From: an uncultured Eubacteriales bacterium
GTDB lineage: Bacteria; Bacillota; Clostridia; Peptostreptococcales; Anaerovoracaceae
Direction of reading: 5' to 3'
DNA length: 22,841 nucleotides
Assembly: GCA_902803185.1 (NCBI GenBank)
Contig: CADCOV010000033.1
Span: 1-22,841 of the forward strand
The notes under the pieces are model-generated. The model had not been told where the DNA came from. It saw nothing but the letters and a program-made list of their open reading frames with translations, and made no database searches. Positions 1,282-22,841 of the stretch are shown piece by piece. Numbering within the stretch: the first letter of the stretch is position 1; each line of letters starts with the position of its first letter. The position numbers and the translations under genes were made by a program.

Positions 1282-1357
1282 TGGTGTTCCGTGACGGGCT
1301 CGAACCGCCGACCTACTGGTTGTGACCCAGTCGCTCTCCCAGCTGAGCTAACGGAAC
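1282..1357 (-). tRNA. tRNA-Val (anticodon CAC)
   Basis: A 76-base cloverleaf on the minus strand with acceptor GTTCCGT/ACGGAAC, D-arm GCTC..GAGC, anticodon stem ACTGG/CCAGT and a TTCGAGC T-loop. The anticodon loop is GTCACAA. With U33 before it the anticodon is CAC, which reads GUG valine. The CCA tail is encoded. It is a single transcription unit with an extended -10 promoter upstream and a hairpin terminator just downstream. Confidence 0.93.
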
Positions 1358-1486: not shown

Positions 1487-4400
1487 TCAGGCCACGTCGG
1501 TGAGTTTGAGGTCTTTGATCTTCCTCAGGGCCAGCGCGTAGATCGCGACGGCGAAGACTGCGGCGATGACGGCGCCAAGCAGCCAGGCCAGCGGCTGGAC
1601 GGTCAGCACGACGTGGAGGGCGACGCTCTCCACCAGGGTGAGGACCCGGTAACCCAGGAGCGCGCCCGCAGCGATGCCGAGGACGATCCCCGCGATGGTG
1701 GTGAAGACCGCTTCTCTGACCACGTAGCCATTCACTTCCCTGACGGTGAAGCCGTTGACCCGCATGATCGTGAGCTCCCGCTTCTTCTGGTGGATCTGCA
1801 TGTTCACCAGGTTCAGCAGGATGAAGTAGGCCATCATGGCCGCGATCACCGTGAGGACGCCGGCGATGAGGTCGAGGACGGAGGCCAGTTTGACGTAGTC
1901 GCGCTTGACCTCTTCCCTGAGGTCGACCTTGGCGACGGTCCTGTCGGCTTCCAGGCTCTGCTTCAGAGCAGCGGCATCCCCGCCCTCCAGCCGCGCCAGG
2001 AAGACGTTGGCCTTCGGGGCCTTGCCGAAGATCATCTCATAGCTCCGGGTGGACATCACCATCTCCCGGCAGACGTAGTCCTCGAAGACGCCCGCCACCA
2101 CGACGATGTGCGGCACCATGTCCTCATCGTAGAGGGCGATGCGGTCGCCGGTCCTGACGCCGTTCACCTCCGACAGCATGCGGTGGATGTAGACGCCGTG
2201 GACGCTTCTGTCCAAAGGCTTCCTGGTATAGGCGTCCCGCAGGGCGAAGAAGTCGTCCATGTCGTCCAGGTCGCCGACGATGAATTCGCTGGCGCTCATG
2301 CGCTCACCGATCTTGAAGCTCAGGTTGGTATCCCGCACCGGGACGAAGGAAGCGCCGGCTTCCTCCAGGGACGCCCGCACCTGCTCCTCCGCGTCGGCCT
2401 CTCCCTGGTCCAGGAAGACCTTGAGGTCGTATTTCAGGATGTCCGCGAACTGGCGGTCCACCCCCTTGGCGATGGAGTTGCGGATGGTGAAGCCCGCCAC
2501 CAACAGTGCGCAGCATCCCGCCACGCTGGCGATGGTGACCAGCACCCTCCTCCTGTCCGTGCGTATGTTGCGGAGGATCAGGCGGTTGTAGAGGGAGCCG
2601 CTGCGCTTCCCTTCCCCGCCCTTCGGCGCCGCAGACGGCGCCTTGCCCTGCATCAGGGTGGTCGCCGTGGTCTTCATCAGCTGGGTGCAGGCGCTCCACA
2701 CCGCCAGGGTGGACAGCAGGATGCCAAGGACCGCCACGATGGCCGCGAGGCCGGCCTGGAACTCCAGGCCCGTGCAGTCGAACATGTAGAAGCGGGAGTA
2801 GGCGTTCAGCGCGATCCTTTGGATGATCGAGTAGGCGCCGGCGAATCCCAGCAGGATGCCGAAGGCCGTACCGGAAACGCCGAACAGCATATACTTGGCC
2901 AGGATCTCCCGGTTCAGCAGGCCCAGGGCTTTGGTCGTCCCGACCAGCTGCCGCTGCTCCTCCACGATCCGGCCCACCGTGGCGTAGATCACCATGGCGC
3001 CGACCAGGATGAAGAGCAGCGCGAAGGCCACGCTGATGTTCTTGACGTTGCGGGTGCCGTTCCGGAGGAAGAAGCTGCCCATGTTGCCCTCCTGGTCCAG
3101 GACGAACCAGCGGCAATCGTTCAGGGCCTTGAGATCGGCCTTCGCCTCCTCCAGCTCCGCCTGCCCCTCCTCATACTTCCTGAGGCCGTCGGCGTATTCC
3201 TCCTCGCCCTTCTCCAGGTCCTTCTTCGCCTGCCCGAGGTCTTTGACCCCGTCGTCGTAGGCGGTCTGGTTCGCCTCAAGCTCCGCCCAGCCGTAGTCCA
3301 GCTGCGCCCGGGCGTTCTGATAGGCCGCGAGGCCGGCATTGTAGTCGTTCAGGCCCGCGATGTACTGATCGTGGCCTTCATCCCATTTCTTCGCTCCGTC
3401 CGCCAGCGCGTCGTAGCTGTCCTTGGCGGCGAGGAGGCCGTCCAGAAGGGCGTCGGTCTCCTCCGGCGTGAGGCTCTCCGCCTGCTGCTCCGCCTCGTCC
3501 TTCGCGGCATCCATGTCCACGCCGAGGGCGCCCAGGATCGCTTCCGCGTTCTGGTCCATGGACAGGTTCAGGTCTATGACCACGCCGTTCGCCACCGGGA
3601 ACAAAGTCTCCCTCGTCGCCGGGTCGTCCACCGGCCCCGCATCGACGCTGCTCCAGACGATATCGGAGGCCGCGTCGCCGAGATAGAGCTCCGCGGCGGT
3701 CCGCAGCATATCCTGCACGGAGGCCTTGGAGGCTTCGATCTCCTGCTTGCCGTTCTCCAGCTCCGCCTTCGCGGCGGCGAGTTCCGTCTCCGCGGCGGCG
3801 AGCTTCTCGCCGGAGGCAGTGTACTCGGCCTCTCCGTCCTCCAGGGTCTTCCTGCCCTCTTCGAGCTTGGCAGCGGCATCCTTCAGCGCCGCCTCCCCTT
3901 CCTCGTATTCCTTGTGGCCGTCGTCCAACTCCTTGCGGGCGTCAGCCAGTTCCTTCTCCGCATCGGCCAGTTCCTTTTCTGCCTCGTCGATCCGCTCCTG
4001 GTACATGCTCCGGATCGCGTCGGACCGCAGCCTGGCCCGTTCCTCGGTCATGGCCTCCAGCCTGGCCGTCGTGGCCGCCGCAGCCTCGTCGTAGTCCTTC
4101 GTGCGAAGCTCAAGGCCGGCCGTATCGGCGTAGCGGATCTCCGCCCGCATGAAGCAGCCGTCCAAAGCCTCCCGGTCAAAGGCCTGAGGCGCCACCACCG
4201 CGTACCGGTCGCCCGGCACGGCGATCTCGCTGCAGGCGTGGTCCGGGTGCAGGATCACGCCAGTGATCTTGTAGGTCCCGCTCTTCAGGTAGCCGGTGCT
4301 GTCCGTGAAGGTGATGTCGTCGCCGACGGAGGCGCCGAGGGACTCCAGGAGTTGGGGTTCCAGCACGCACTCGTCCGCCTTCTCCGGCAGGCGGCCCTCC

Positions 4401-4768
4401 ACCACCATCGGGAGGTTCAGCCGCTCCGTCAGGGAGAGGACCACGGTATCCTTCTCGATGCCGCCGACCCGGGCGATGACGTTGGCCTGGTAGGCGCCCT
4501 CCACCTCCGCCACGCCCTCGGTCTCCCGGATCACGTCCATGTCCTCCTCCGTGAGGAGCAGGGTGGAGATGATCTCCGCATCCCGGAAATTGGTCGCGGC
4601 GTAGAACCGGTTGCCGTTCCGGGCGATGGCCCGGGAGGTGAAGCTGAGGCCCAGGTACGCCATGACGGCAAGCATGGCGATGACCACGATGGAGATCCAG
4701 GAGACCAGTTGCCTCCGGACGTTCCGTATTGCGTCTTTTCTCTGCGTCCGTTTCATGCCGATCACCAT
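1487..4768 (-). CDS. ABC transporter permease, FtsX/MacB type, with large coiled-coil extracytoplasmic domain
   Basis: 1093 residues, far longer than a typical 400-800 residue FtsX-type permease. Order of parts: membrane segment ~22-44; a MacB-like periplasmic core domain ~60-225; alanine/glutamate-rich coiled coil ~228-360 with EKELADA-like heptads; a small domain ~365-420; a second coiled coil ~425-550; first FtsX domain with membrane segments from ~578 to ~720, including EEQRQLVGTTKALG, the coupling-type motif; a second half starting near 755 with its own external domain and three more membrane segments, containing QKKRELTIMRVNGF. The start at 4768 overlaps the stop of the upstream ATPase. 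The ATG at 4756 has a better GGTGAT spacing and is an equally good start. The two genes form one operon, so the ATPase drives this permease. Substrate unknown: envelope stress, peptide or lipid handling, or mechanotransmission to a wall enzyme are all possible. Confidence 0.88.
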   Translation of the reverse strand: MVIGMKRTQRKDAIRNVRRQLVSWISIVVIAMLAVMAYLGLSFTSRAIARNGNRFYAATNFRDAEIISTLLLTEEDMDVIRETEGVAEVEGAYQANVIARVGGIEKDTVVLSLTERLNLPMVVEGRLPEKADECVLEPQLLESLGASVGDDITFTDSTGYLKSGTYKITGVILHPDHACSEIAVPGDRYAVVAPQAFDREALDGCFMRAEIRYADTAGLELRTKDYDEAAAATTARLEAMTEERARLRSDAIRSMYQERIDEAEKELADAEKELADARKELDDGHKEYEEGEAALKDAAAKLEEGRKTLEDGEAEYTASGEKLAAAETELAAAKAELENGKQEIEASKASVQDMLRTAAELYLGDAASDIVWSSVDAGPVDDPATRETLFPVANGVVIDLNLSMDQNAEAILGALGVDMDAAKDEAEQQAESLTPEETDALLDGLLAAKDSYDALADGAKKWDEGHDQYIAGLNDYNAGLAAYQNARAQLDYGWAELEANQTAYDDGVKDLGQAKKDLEKGEEEYADGLRKYEEGQAELEEAKADLKALNDCRWFVLDQEGNMGSFFLRNGTRNVKNISVAFALLFILVGAMVIYATVGRIVEEQRQLVGTTKALGLLNREILAKYMLFGVSGTAFGILLGFAGAYSIIQRIALNAYSRFYMFDCTGLEFQAGLAAIVAVLGILLSTLAVWSACTQLMKTTATTLMQGKAPSAAPKGGEGKRSGSLYNRLILRNIRTDRRRVLVTIASVAGCCALLVAGFTIRNSIAKGVDRQFADILKYDLKVFLDQGEADAEEQVRASLEEAGASFVPVRDTNLSFKIGERMSASEFIVGDLDDMDDFFALRDAYTRKPLDRSVHGVYIHRMLSEVNGVRTGDRIALYDEDMVPHIVVVAGVFEDYVCREMVMSTRSYEMIFGKAPKANVFLARLEGGDAAALKQSLEADRTVAKVDLREEVKRDYVKLASVLDLIAGVLTVIAAMMAYFILLNLVNMQIHQKKRELTIMRVNGFTVREVNGYVVREAVFTTIAGIVLGIAAGALLGYRVLTLVESVALHVVLTVQPLAWLLGAVIAAVFAVAIYALALRKIKDLKLTDVA

Positions 4769-20639: not shown

Positions 20640-21458
20640 TTACTCCAGCGCGGTCAGGATCGGGTCCAGGCCTTCGCAGTCGTAATCCTCCGCGGCGCCC
20701 TCGTCGCAGGCCTTCGCCAGCGCCGGGTCCAGCGGCAGCTTCGCGATGGCTTCGATGCCGTACTGGGCTGCGATCTCCTCGATGTGGCTGTCGCCGAAGA
20801 TCTTGTGCTCCTTGCCGCAGTCCGGGCAGCGGAAGTAAGCCATGTTCTCCACGATGCCCACGATCGGGATGTTCATCATGTTCGCCATCTTGACCGCCTT
20901 CTGGACGATCATGCCCACCAGCTGCTGCGGGGAGGTCACGATCACGATGCCGTCCACCGGCAGGGACTGATAGACCGTCAGGGCCACGTCGCCGGTTCCC
21001 GGCGGCATGTCGACGAACATCACGTCCACGTCGCCCCAGACCACGTCGCTCCAGAACTGGTTGATGACGCCGCCCAGGATCGGGCCTCTCCAGACCACCG
21101 GATCCGTCTCATCCTCCAGCAGGAGGTTGATGGACATGATCTTGATGCCGTCGTCGGTGAGGACCGGCAGCAGGGCCTCGTCGTTGCCCTGGGCCTTCTC
21201 ATGGACGCCGAAGGCCTTCGGGATGGAAGGGCCGGTGATGTCCGCGTCCATGATGGCGACCTTCTTGCCCCTGCGGGCCTCGGCCACCGCCAGCATGGAG
21301 GTGATGGAGGACTTGCCGACGCCGCCCTTGCCGCTGATGACGCCGATCACCTTCTTCACGTTGCTGTATTTGTTCATCGGGGCCTTCTGGATCCCCGGAG
21401 CTGTTCTATCGCCGCAGTCCTTGCCGCAGGAACCGCAGTCATGATTGCAATCTGCCAT
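20640..21458 (-). CDS. mrp: Mrp/NBP35-type P-loop ATPase, Fe-S cluster carrier
   Basis: 272 residues. Carrier ATPase that binds and hands over [4Fe-4S] clusters. Deviant Walker A is GKGGVGKSS (43-51), followed by MDADITGPSIPKAFG; VDMPPGTGD (149-157) is the Mrp signature. The cluster-bridging CPDC pair is C211 and C214. An extra N-terminal cysteine group (C4, C8, C11, C15) resembles NBP35-type proteins. The ATG at 21458 has AAGGAG 7 bases upstream, and the gene lies 16 bases after the ferredoxin-like gene. This fits a job in maturation of Fe-S proteins, perhaps the neighbouring one. Confidence 0.93.
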   Translation of the reverse strand: MADCNHDCGSCGKDCGDRTAPGIQKAPMNKYSNVKKVIGVISGKGGVGKSSITSMLAVAEARRGKKVAIMDADITGPSIPKAFGVHEKAQGNDEALLPVLTDDGIKIMSINLLLEDETDPVVWRGPILGGVINQFWSDVVWGDVDVMFVDMPPGTGDVALTVYQSLPVDGIVIVTSPQQLVGMIVQKAVKMANMMNIPIVGIVENMAYFRCPDCGKEHKIFGDSHIEEIAAQYGIEAIAKLPLDPALAKACDEGAAEDYDCEGLDPILTALE

Positions 21459-21474: not shown

Positions 21475-21915
21475 TTACTTCTTCCAGAACGTACAGCCCG
21501 CGCACTCCGGCCTCTTCGGGTCCTCCGGGTCGCAGTACAGCGGCGCCACCTGCACGTTCGGCGGGAGCTTGTCGCCCATCAAAGACTTCAGCCCCGCGAT
21601 CTGGCAAAGTGTGCCCACGAACTGGATGTGATTGCCTGCCCTGGCGGCCCGGATCGTCTCCCGGTACACCTTCGGCATGTCTCTGTGATAATACTGTTCG
21701 TCGTACTCGTAATACGTCTCGAACAGCGGCAGTTCCACCGGCATGTAGAGCGGGCAGTACAGCACGCAGTTGTTGCACTTGCTGCAGCCGTTCTCGTCGA
21801 TCAGCGGCTGCTTATACCCGTTCTCGTCTTCCACCATGTGGATGCAGGAATACCTGCAGCCCACGATACATGCGGAACAGCCGTTGCAATTCCTGACTTT
21901 CTCTGTGATTTGCAT
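21475..21915 (-). CDS. Short two-[4Fe-4S] ferredoxin/FrhB-like protein
   Basis: 146 residues from the ATG at 21915 (AGGA nearby); an in-frame ATG eight codons up is possible. Two ferredoxin motifs, CNGCSACIVGC and CSKCNNCVLYCP, occupy residues ~9-55. The remainder holds FVGTLCQIAGLKSLMG, the motif seen near the N-terminus of coenzyme F420 hydrogenase/dehydrogenase beta subunits (usually GTPCQIAGLK), and ends with CDPEDPKRPECAGCTFW. FrhB proteins are ~300-400 residues, so this is either a truncated derivative or a separate small family with a third metal site. It shares an operon with mrp. It probably carries electrons or is a client of Mrp; the function is unknown. Confidence 0.8.
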   Translation of the reverse strand: MQITEKVRNCNGCSACIVGCRYSCIHMVEDENGYKQPLIDENGCSKCNNCVLYCPLYMPVELPLFETYYEYDEQYYHRDMPKVYRETIRAARAGNHIQFVGTLCQIAGLKSLMGDKLPPNVQVAPLYCDPEDPKRPECAGCTFWKK

Positions 21916-21963
21916 GACTATCCTACCTTTTTCCATTCTGCCGCGGCCAACGGCCGCCCATAT

Positions 21964-22009: not shown

Positions 22010-22228
22010 AAACAAAAAAGAAAATGCCGACTGTCCTGCGATCTCACTCGTTGGCCTCACTTCCGGATGGCCCTCCCTGCAAACAGTCGGCATTCTATGA
22101 AGTTGGGTTCTGCAATTCCTTCGGTCTCACCCCTTTCCTGCATTCCGGGTCTCACTCCGGAACTTAGTCGGCAGGCGCGATCCTGCTTCTTCACATCTAT
22201 TTCACTGCTTCTGCACTCTCGCTTCCTT
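22010..22228 (-). ncRNA. Probable structured non-coding RNA (~210 nt), family not identified
   Basis: A stretch with its own promoter and strong terminator and no useful ORF fills most of the 402-bp gap 21916-22317. Visible helices on the minus strand: GCAGG/CCTGC (22171-22186), TTCCGG/CCGGAA around an 8-base loop (22143-22162), a GGCC/GGCC hairpin (22053-22072), and the 12-bp terminator stem. The sequence is purine-rich, with about nine GGA triplets, repeated GCAGGA and four GTGAG[AG][CT]C copies. The 8-mer TGCCGACT occurs twice, and both copies can pair with the terminator 3' arm, so alternative folds are possible. I see no T-box, SAM, lysine, glycine, cobalamin or 6S consensus. It could be an independent RNA or a leader controlling the Fe-S operon. 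Confidence 0.65.
22011..22094 (-). terminator. Terminator stem closing the non-coding RNA
   Basis: A perfect 12-bp stem AATGCCGACTGT/ACAGTCGGCATT (22023-22034 with 22083-22094) closes a 48-base structured loop and is followed on the minus strand by TTCTTTTTTG. Confidence 0.75.
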
Positions 22229-22234
22229 GACTAT

Positions 22235-22262
22235 ATTATAGCCGAATTCCACGAAAAGTAAA
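22235..22262 (-). promoter_or_regulatory. Promoter of the non-coding RNA
   Basis: Minus strand TTTACT (22257-22262), 16 bases, perfect TATAAT (22235-22240). The region between it and the aspartate kinase stop codon is AT-rich with no other feature I can name. Confidence 0.75.
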
Positions 22263-22317: not shown

Positions 22318-22841
22318 TCAGGCGGTCACCTTGACCGCCCGGGCGAACTGCTCGTAGATGGCTTTGACCGCCTCCACGTAGTCCTCGTCGGACACGGCCA
22401 GGGTCATGTTCATCTTCTGGGCGCCGTGGTCGATGAACTTCACGCCGATCCGGCGGGTGTTCAGGGCGGTCAGCACCTTCACCGCGGCTTCCGGCGAGCT
22501 GCCCAGCTCCCGGCCGACGATGCCGATGACGGAAAGCCCCGGCTCCGCGCTGAAGCGGATCTGCGGGTAGTGCTCCGCCAGATCCTCCCGGATCTCCTCG
22601 ATGAGCTGCCAGCTCAGATCCTGCCCGTTCACCACCAGGGTGATGGAATCGATCCCCGCCAGGGTGCTGGCGATGCGGATGCCCCTCTCGCCGAAGGCCG
22701 CCGCCACCTCCGCCTGGGCCGCCAGGTTCTCCCCCAGCCCGGTGTCCTCGATGTTGACGCCCACGAAGCCCTGCCGGCCGGAGATGCCGGAGATCTCCAT
22801 CTTGTTGCCGTAGTAGCGGGCGTTTTTGACGATCAAAGTCC
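22318..22841 (-). CDS. lysC: Aspartate kinase, C-terminal part (5' end beyond window)
   Basis: 174 codons up to the stop codon at 22318; the gene continues past base 22841. The visible part starts in the linker TLIVKN after the kinase domain, then carries the two ACT domains of monofunctional aspartokinases. The first is ISGISGRQGFVGVNIEDTGL (~15-75), with GIDSITLVV, and the second is ~95-172 (GLSVIGIVGRELGSSPEAAV, GVKFIDHGAQKMNMTLAVSD). These domains bind the end-product amino acid (usually lysine, sometimes with threonine) and give feedback control. The kinase phosphorylates aspartate at the head of lysine, threonine and methionine synthesis. Which isoform it is cannot be judged from this part. 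Confidence 0.85.
   Translation of the reverse strand, partial: TLIVKNARYYGNKMEISGISGRQGFVGVNIEDTGLGENLAAQAEVAAAFGERGIRIASTLAGIDSITLVVNGQDLSWQLIEEIREDLAEHYPQIRFSAEPGLSVIGIVGRELGSSPEAAVKVLTALNTRRIGVKFIDHGAQKMNMTLAVSDEDYVEAVKAIYEQFARAVKVTA

Follow-up and report, generated by a model that had tools for sequence, protein, structure and literature searches.

The leader peptides of attenuation systems (trp, ilv and erm type) combine a Shine-Dalgarno sequence with a very short open reading frame (ORF) whose stop codon lies beside an intrinsic terminator. The RNA analyzed here shares these three features. Unlike attenuation leaders, it shows no conservation of the next gene at the loci checked, some of its neighbors are convergent, and no run of sensing codons was seen in its ORF. 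Lambda bar is a minigene, in which a tiny ORF precedes other sequence. The two-codon mini-ORF of axe-txe is described as acting in cis on its own mRNA (PMC8708949). The new RNA resembles these minigenes in its tiny ORF, but it is a free-standing structured gene with 5-10 codons and a stop at the foot of the terminator. Two known RNAs are likewise free-standing and structured: 6S RNA (RF00013), with which a comparison as a decoy is by analogy, ribosomes replacing RNA polymerase, and the clostridial raiA motif or ModT, which is described as about 200 nt long (RF03072; PMC11706538). Extended Shine-Dalgarno initiation in Staphylococcus aureus is reported to involve a long duplex with the anti-Shine-Dalgarno sequence, longer spacing and a small leader ORF (PMC13009471). 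The new RNA is predicted to have all three, whereas the S. aureus elements, as presented there, are mRNA 5' regions with a regulated downstream gene (PMC13009471).

The window locus and the identity of the RNA

The window is the whole stretch of DNA that was analyzed, 22,841 nucleotides in length. The RNA lies on its minus strand between an aspartate kinase gene, which ends at 22318 and extends beyond the window edge, and a 4Fe-4S/Mrp gene pair. The coordinates of all features are shown in Table 1. A tRNA-Val (CAC) gene is found elsewhere in the window, at 1285-1357 (-).

Table 1. Positions of the RNA, its parts and its neighbors in the window.
Feature	Position	Strand	Basis
Whole RNA	22010..22229	(-)	Promoter and terminator positions; model R1 match
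Promoter, TTTACT-16 nt-TATAAT	22235..22262	(-)	Consensus scan; coordinates checked
Hairpin 5' of core, UUCCGG / CCGGAA, loop AGUGAGAC	22143..22162	(-)	Helix 1 of alignment A4
Conserved core GGAAAGGGGUGAGACCGAAGGAA, near-complement of 16S rRNA 3' tail	22116..22138	(-)	Family-wide pattern searches
Micro-ORF UUG CAG AAC CCA ACU UCA UAG (MQNPTS)	22095..22115	(-)	Frame conserved in relatives
3' domain: 12-bp closing/terminator stem, 22094-22083 with 22034-22023	22023..22094	(-)	Inverted repeat
U-run of intrinsic terminator	22013..22024	(-)	Sequence
Neighbor outside RNA: aspartate kinase, C-terminal part (ACT domain)	22318..22836	(-)	Pfam ACT_9
Neighbor outside RNA: 4Fe-4S protein	21475..21915	(-)	Pfam (queried as 21475-21918); start codon read
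Mrp/NUBPL ATPase, next after 4Fe-4S gene	20640-21458		Pfam

A sigma-70-type promoter-like site precedes the RNA of about 215 nt, whose transcript would start near 22228 and end near 22013. Taken alone, the promoter match in the window is weak, as one such site was found in 2 kb versus 0.6 in shuffles. Across the family, a promoter-like site was found at most 300 nt upstream in 30 of 35 cluster representatives, compared to 10.8 in composition shuffles, and the genus relatives have a comparable TTTAC(T/A) ... TATA(A/C)T layout. The TATAAT promoter proposed in an earlier, sequence-only reading of this DNA was upheld. The scan detected no site in the other five representatives, among them both of those from Acetobacterium.

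Rfam 15 was searched at the gathering score. Nothing in the whole window matched on the RNA, the sole match being a distant tRNA, and 25 further loci gave only tRNA and the L21 leader, both off the RNA. When the search was relaxed to E values up to 10 for the window region and one relative, on either strand, only chance-level families were returned. The RNA thus keeps its earlier description as unassigned. In size and structuredness, the RNA superficially resembles raiA, 6S, riboswitches and CsrA sponges, but the explanation that it is a divergent relative within a known family, or such a sponge, is refuted at the sensitivity of Rfam 15; we give it hardly any credence. The raiA model did not match the RNA, and a full-scoring raiA RNA is located elsewhere in the genome, at G000:C223 (132.8 bits). 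The 6S model did not match it either, and the genome's own 6S is at G000:C257 (53.8 bits). The earlier suggestion of a GGA-rich sponge for a CsrA-like protein fails on the distribution of the protein, since the search for CsrA gave 0 positives among 13 genus genomes and 4 among 49 family genomes. The window's own genome is only 79% complete; in G009, at 96%, the RNA is present and CsrA gave no match.

No description of the RNA was found in the literature, as judged from titles and abstract openings, and the family appears to be undescribed. In a large survey of candidate structured RNAs from human microbiomes, the main text, in the portion available, makes no mention of Emergencia, Anaerovorax or Acetobacterium, but the survey's 16,482 RNA models could include the new family (PMC8040213).

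Homologues and covarying structure

When the whole RNA was used as a blastn query against 149 related genomes, most of the matches fell on U-runs. A shared block allowed copies in G002, G006 and G009 to be recognized in the output, and a copy in G060 was recognized later. A covariance model, R1, was built from G002, G006 and G009 alone, with the window excluded. R1 found the window RNA at 22175-22015 with a score of 49.7 bits (E 9.2e-11 in the window search and 6.9e-9 genome-wide) and found copies in 10 of the 13 genus genomes. The other three, G001, G004 and G008, had no convincing copy (best E 0.04, 3.8 and 4.4, respectively). G004 and G008 are near-complete genomes, suggesting that the RNA is dispensable there. 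Weak R1 matches in G099, G102, G128, G130 and G136 (E 2.4e-4 to 0.09), which were many per genome in some, were treated as chance; they look like 23S rRNA.

Pattern searches extended the family. The block AAAGRGGTGAGWCC matched 53 times in 346 family genomes, 47 of which had a match, and its reversed control gave 17; not all of the 53 matches are real. The judgment by eye covered 30 of them, nine of which were taken as chance, and some of the other 23. With a longer core pattern, 392 genomes of the order gave 39 matches, spread over 38 genomes, and a single match when the pattern was reversed, and a second model, R2, had matches at E 0.01 in 35 of 217 family genomes. Two RNA matches were seen in G233, on contigs C45 and C52. 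A named collection yielded 48 loci, judged by eye as 36 real, 9 chance and 3 uncertain. Five Acetobacterium genomes are among its hosts, as are Emergencia timonensis, Anaerovorax, Bacilliculturomica and Clostridium aminobutyricum. Of these, Emergencia and Anaerovorax belong to the Anaerovoracaceae, within the Peptostreptococcales. The A. bakii DSM 8239 locus is on contig_40, near 56.1-56.5 kb. Across the wider phylum, a 22-mer core with at most one mismatch was found in 0 of 398 genomes, a search that covered the RCC core variant and excluded the AAR variant of Acetobacterium and the window's genus. A 25-base pattern gave 0 matches in viral contigs. Judged from these comparisons, the RNA is a conserved free-standing RNA gene of the genus, other Anaerovoracaceae and Acetobacterium.

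The family layout begins with a variable 5' domain; the core and a short ORF come next, and a 3' stem-loop domain, which ends in the terminator, comes last. Estimated lengths from promoter to terminator were 95 to 357 nt in the 30 representatives with promoter-like sites, and about 33 nt separate the estimated start site from the start codon in L101. What the 3' stem encloses ranges from a small loop to over 200 nt (L113). In L113, L175 and L152, the stem encloses a long extra stretch of 150 to more than 200 nt.

In folding, the window RNA outscored 196 of 200 shuffles (z -2.2), and the RNA of a genus relative outscored all 200 (z -3.3). The 12-bp terminator stem noted in the sequence-only reading is a perfect inverted repeat followed by a U-run. 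The 3' domain also contains small hairpins, GGCC/GGCC and CGA-GUGAGA-UCG, and the hairpin 5' of the core is the counterpart of a GUCG...CGAC hairpin in the relatives. Covariation was examined in alignment A4, which consists of 11 sequences (10 from the genus and 1 from another genus) aligned to R1. Compensatory changes were found at 25 of 36 pairs, including 6 of 6 in helix 1, where 100% of cells were paired, and 8 of 12 in helix 3, the 3' closing/terminator stem. Conservation and covariation in relatives had been named beforehand as a check on the RNA, and its outcome was positive. A4 was fitted to R1, which favors the structure. In it, 97.8% of cells were paired; shuffled and slid controls gave 82.9% and 26-40%, respectively.

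The repeats described earlier (three copies each of GCAGGA and GTGAGA, nine GGA triplets and two copies of TGCCGACT) are all present. It had also been proposed that the two TGCCGACT copies compete for the terminator arm. An upstream repeat of the stem arm of at least 8 nt was seen in 1 of 35 representatives, namely the window, and the longest upstream match averaged 5.3 nt, versus 5.3 in shuffles. This repeat is private to the window sequence, and competition for the terminator was dismissed as a family trait.

A 16S-complementary core and a short reading frame

The family core, with the consensus GAAAGRGGUGAGWCC, was overlooked by the sequence-only reading. In the window, its duplex with UGGAUCACCUCCUUUCU has a predicted energy of -20.0 kcal/mol. 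It ranks second of 22,816 26-mers for pairing with the 16S tail; one unrelated site is slightly better, a result on which the GC-richness of the window bears. The 16S 3' tail TGGATCACCTCCTTTCT was present in 5 of 8 family genomes tested and unmatched in the other three, which include the fragmentary own genome and G009. The core pairs with almost the entire tail, with one or two bulges. Predicted energies were -17.0 to -22.3 kcal/mol, with a mean of -19.9, in 37 of 40 representatives. Shuffled cores had a mean of -8.9 kcal/mol. For 238 long ORFs, which are not curated genes, the sequences preceding the first ATG had a mean of -8.7 kcal/mol, and none attained the core mean.

The core is G-rich and partly unpaired, with a mean unpaired probability of 0.45-0.76 in the eight members computed. 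These properties would also suit an RNA sponge that baits small RNAs carrying C-rich, anti-Shine-Dalgarno-like seeds. However, a sponge leaves the conserved frame and stop described below unexplained, and we regard it as very unlikely. A strong ribosome-binding sequence together with a tiny ORF, as in a ribosome decoy or minigene, was found.

The region had been described as containing no gene, which missed a six-codon ORF (22115-22095; LQNPTS by the plain code) with its stop at the foot of the terminator stem and its frame kept in relatives. Family ORFs have 5-10 codons, begin at a fixed distance past the core and end in a stop that abuts the terminator stem. A start triplet occupies the fixed place in 35 of 40 clusters (AUG in 14, GUG in 20 and UUG in 1). 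The remaining five have GUA (3), GUU (1) or an AUG displaced by one base (1). In 35 of 40 clusters, the frame meets its first stop 15-30 nt further along, compared to 6 and 7 for the other frames; 2000 shuffles averaged 10.3 and reached at most 21. Five clusters have no stop at 15-30 nt. Stops at the stem foot were counted in 30, 3 and 6 of 37 representatives for frames 0, 1 and 2, respectively. In L124, L125, L140 and L141, the frame continues past the stem foot to a later stop.

Changes in the length of the spacer keep the stop in frame, as they come in threes (15, 18, 21, 24, 27 and 30 nt). In L101 and L102, from two species of one genus, the start is displaced by one base and the stop is displaced likewise. 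The predicted peptides are short and loosely similar, e.g. VQIEQTNR, MLTEQK, MQHEQ, MTPEIES and VFNEVR by the plain code. Glu occurs within residues 2-5 in 26 of 40 clusters, versus 1 and 14 in the other frames (14 in the +2 frame). Both synonymous codons are used for the recurring Glu (GAA 23, GAG 11) and Gln (CAG 22, CAA 12).

These counts depend on how loci were collected. The order-wide pattern held RTG, with 2 mismatches allowed, and so slightly favored the start counts for a few representatives. The family-wide and named-collection patterns stopped short of the start codon, and the stop was never selected for. Excluded from the ORF counts were 18 loci deemed chance by eye (9 of 30 and 9 of 48), members cut by contig ends and loci with no terminator-like stem in reach, among them L114, L142 and L150. 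Eight members missed by the filters were restored by hand (L056, L058, L059, L113, L115, L149, L198 and L204). Clusters were defined by 75% identity over 45 nt and are phylogenetically non-independent. The three stemless loci, L114 (Clostridiaceae), L142 (Bacillota) and L150 (Lachnoclostridium), have the exact 22-nt core without the usual start codon, terminator or 3' architecture, and a promoter-like sequence precedes the core in two of them.

The comparison establishes, at the level of sequence, a covarying structure, a 16S-complementary core, a frame of 5-10 codons at a fixed distance and a stop at the stem foot. One rival explanation is a purely structural noncoding RNA, whose frame is untranslated and whose core and stem are motifs for binding a protein or for pairing with other RNAs. 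The covarying helices would fit this, as would the recurrence of the stem arm in sequence (often ...ACCG...) and the replacement of the start by GUA or GUU in 4 of 40 clusters, triplets that should not initiate. On the other hand, maintenance of the stop frame across three-nucleotide steps and a one-base shift, and recurrence of Glu and Gln through both synonymous codons, argue against an untranslated frame, and a structural RNA seems unlikely to us.

The start lies about 14 nt past the core GG, a spacing that exceeds the usual. A possible alternative start is the GUG of GUGAGW, which is in frame with the first and would give M[SR]P[PK]E... and account for the GUA/GUU lineages. The shifted ORF of L101 and L102 and the absence of this GUG in L060 favor the later start.

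Genomic context and a possible mode of action

Ten downstream genes, from a total of 31 loci, were submitted to Pfam, and seven of the ten are on the same strand as the RNA. The nine that could be named belong to nine families (Mem_trans, NDK, Na_Ala_symp, AIRC, tRNA-synt_His, Xan_ur_permease, PseudoU_synth_1, PALP and DUF1294), and three of them are convergent. Nine upstream genes were similarly diverse. Within the genus, the RNA accompanies lysC and an AEC transporter gene, and in G002, G006 and G009 the next gene is the AEC transporter gene in convergent orientation (by Pfam for G009). The diversity of neighbors suggests that the RNA is free-standing rather than an operon leader, the Fe-S/Mrp pair being one neighbor among many. 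A riboswitch or leader for the Fe-S/Mrp operon, as offered by the sequence-only reading, is not supported, since these three genus relatives do not share the position. Its proposal of an independent RNA fits best of its three: the RNA has its own promoter and terminator and unrelated or convergent neighbors, but the raiA class suggested with it does not apply, as the genome's raiA is elsewhere.

In G002, the RNA is directed away from metA-lysC. At this locus (L006), the RNA is inverted relative to metA-lysC, compared to G006 and G009, between the same two flanking genes. L112 carries a metA-lysC fusion before the RNA, with homoserine O-succinyltransferase, amino acid kinase and ACT domains (2462-4759, +), and the start of a similar fusion protein is present in L006.

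The position of the stop at the terminator-stem foot in 30 of 37 representatives, along with a next gene on the RNA strand in 7 of 10 loci, could point to a leader-peptide attenuator. A ribosome on the micro-ORF would block the terminator, transcription would enter the next gene and the RNA would be a cis regulator. Against this, the nine named next genes form no coherent set, the three genus relatives have a convergent gene, and no run of codons for a single amino acid that could serve as a sensor was seen in the ORFs. We therefore consider an attenuator improbable.

The explanation we tentatively favor is an undescribed family of free-standing RNA genes of about 95-360 nt that resemble micro-mRNAs and act in trans, as regulators dependent on ribosome occupancy or as decoys. 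The core would capture 30S subunits via over-long Shine-Dalgarno pairing, and the micro-ORF would then be translated. A ribosome at the stop codon would cover the 5' arm of the closing/terminator stem, so that ribosome loading could be coupled to folding, end formation or stability of the RNA. The RNA would exert its effect in trans and not on a fixed downstream gene. We put this explanation at slightly under an even chance, the lack of promoter matches in the Acetobacterium representatives counting against it. Among its main weaknesses are the GUA/GUU lineages and the long spacing between core and start. A more specific and rather doubtful possibility, drawn by analogy, is a translational counterpart of 6S RNA. 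Such an autonomous one-ribosome micro-mRNA, its core paired with almost all of the 16S 3' tail, might use its frame of 5-10 codons to park or release the ribosome at the terminator stem, so that cells could set the level of free subunits or sense ribosome supply.

The family, with its sharp core and conserved frame of a few codons, occurs in cultured bacteria (Emergencia, Anaerovorax and the acetogen Acetobacterium). If the favored explanation is true, the ribosome itself would be the means by which this small RNA acts. This would be immediately testable in Acetobacterium, for which differential RNA-seq of A. bakii DSM 8239, with 69 intergenic start sites (PMC6239172), and ribosome profiling of A. 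woodii DSM 1030 (PMC8407422) are reported. Micro-ORFs this short evade annotation and, thus, similar RNAs elsewhere may have been missed.

Lastly, raiA and the new RNA were both found in eight genus genomes. In four of these (G009 C8, G007 C7, G003 C78 and G011 C3), raiA is encoded on the strand of the new RNA at a distance of about 7-11 kb; in the other four, the two occupy separate contigs. A shared neighborhood is possible for these RNAs.
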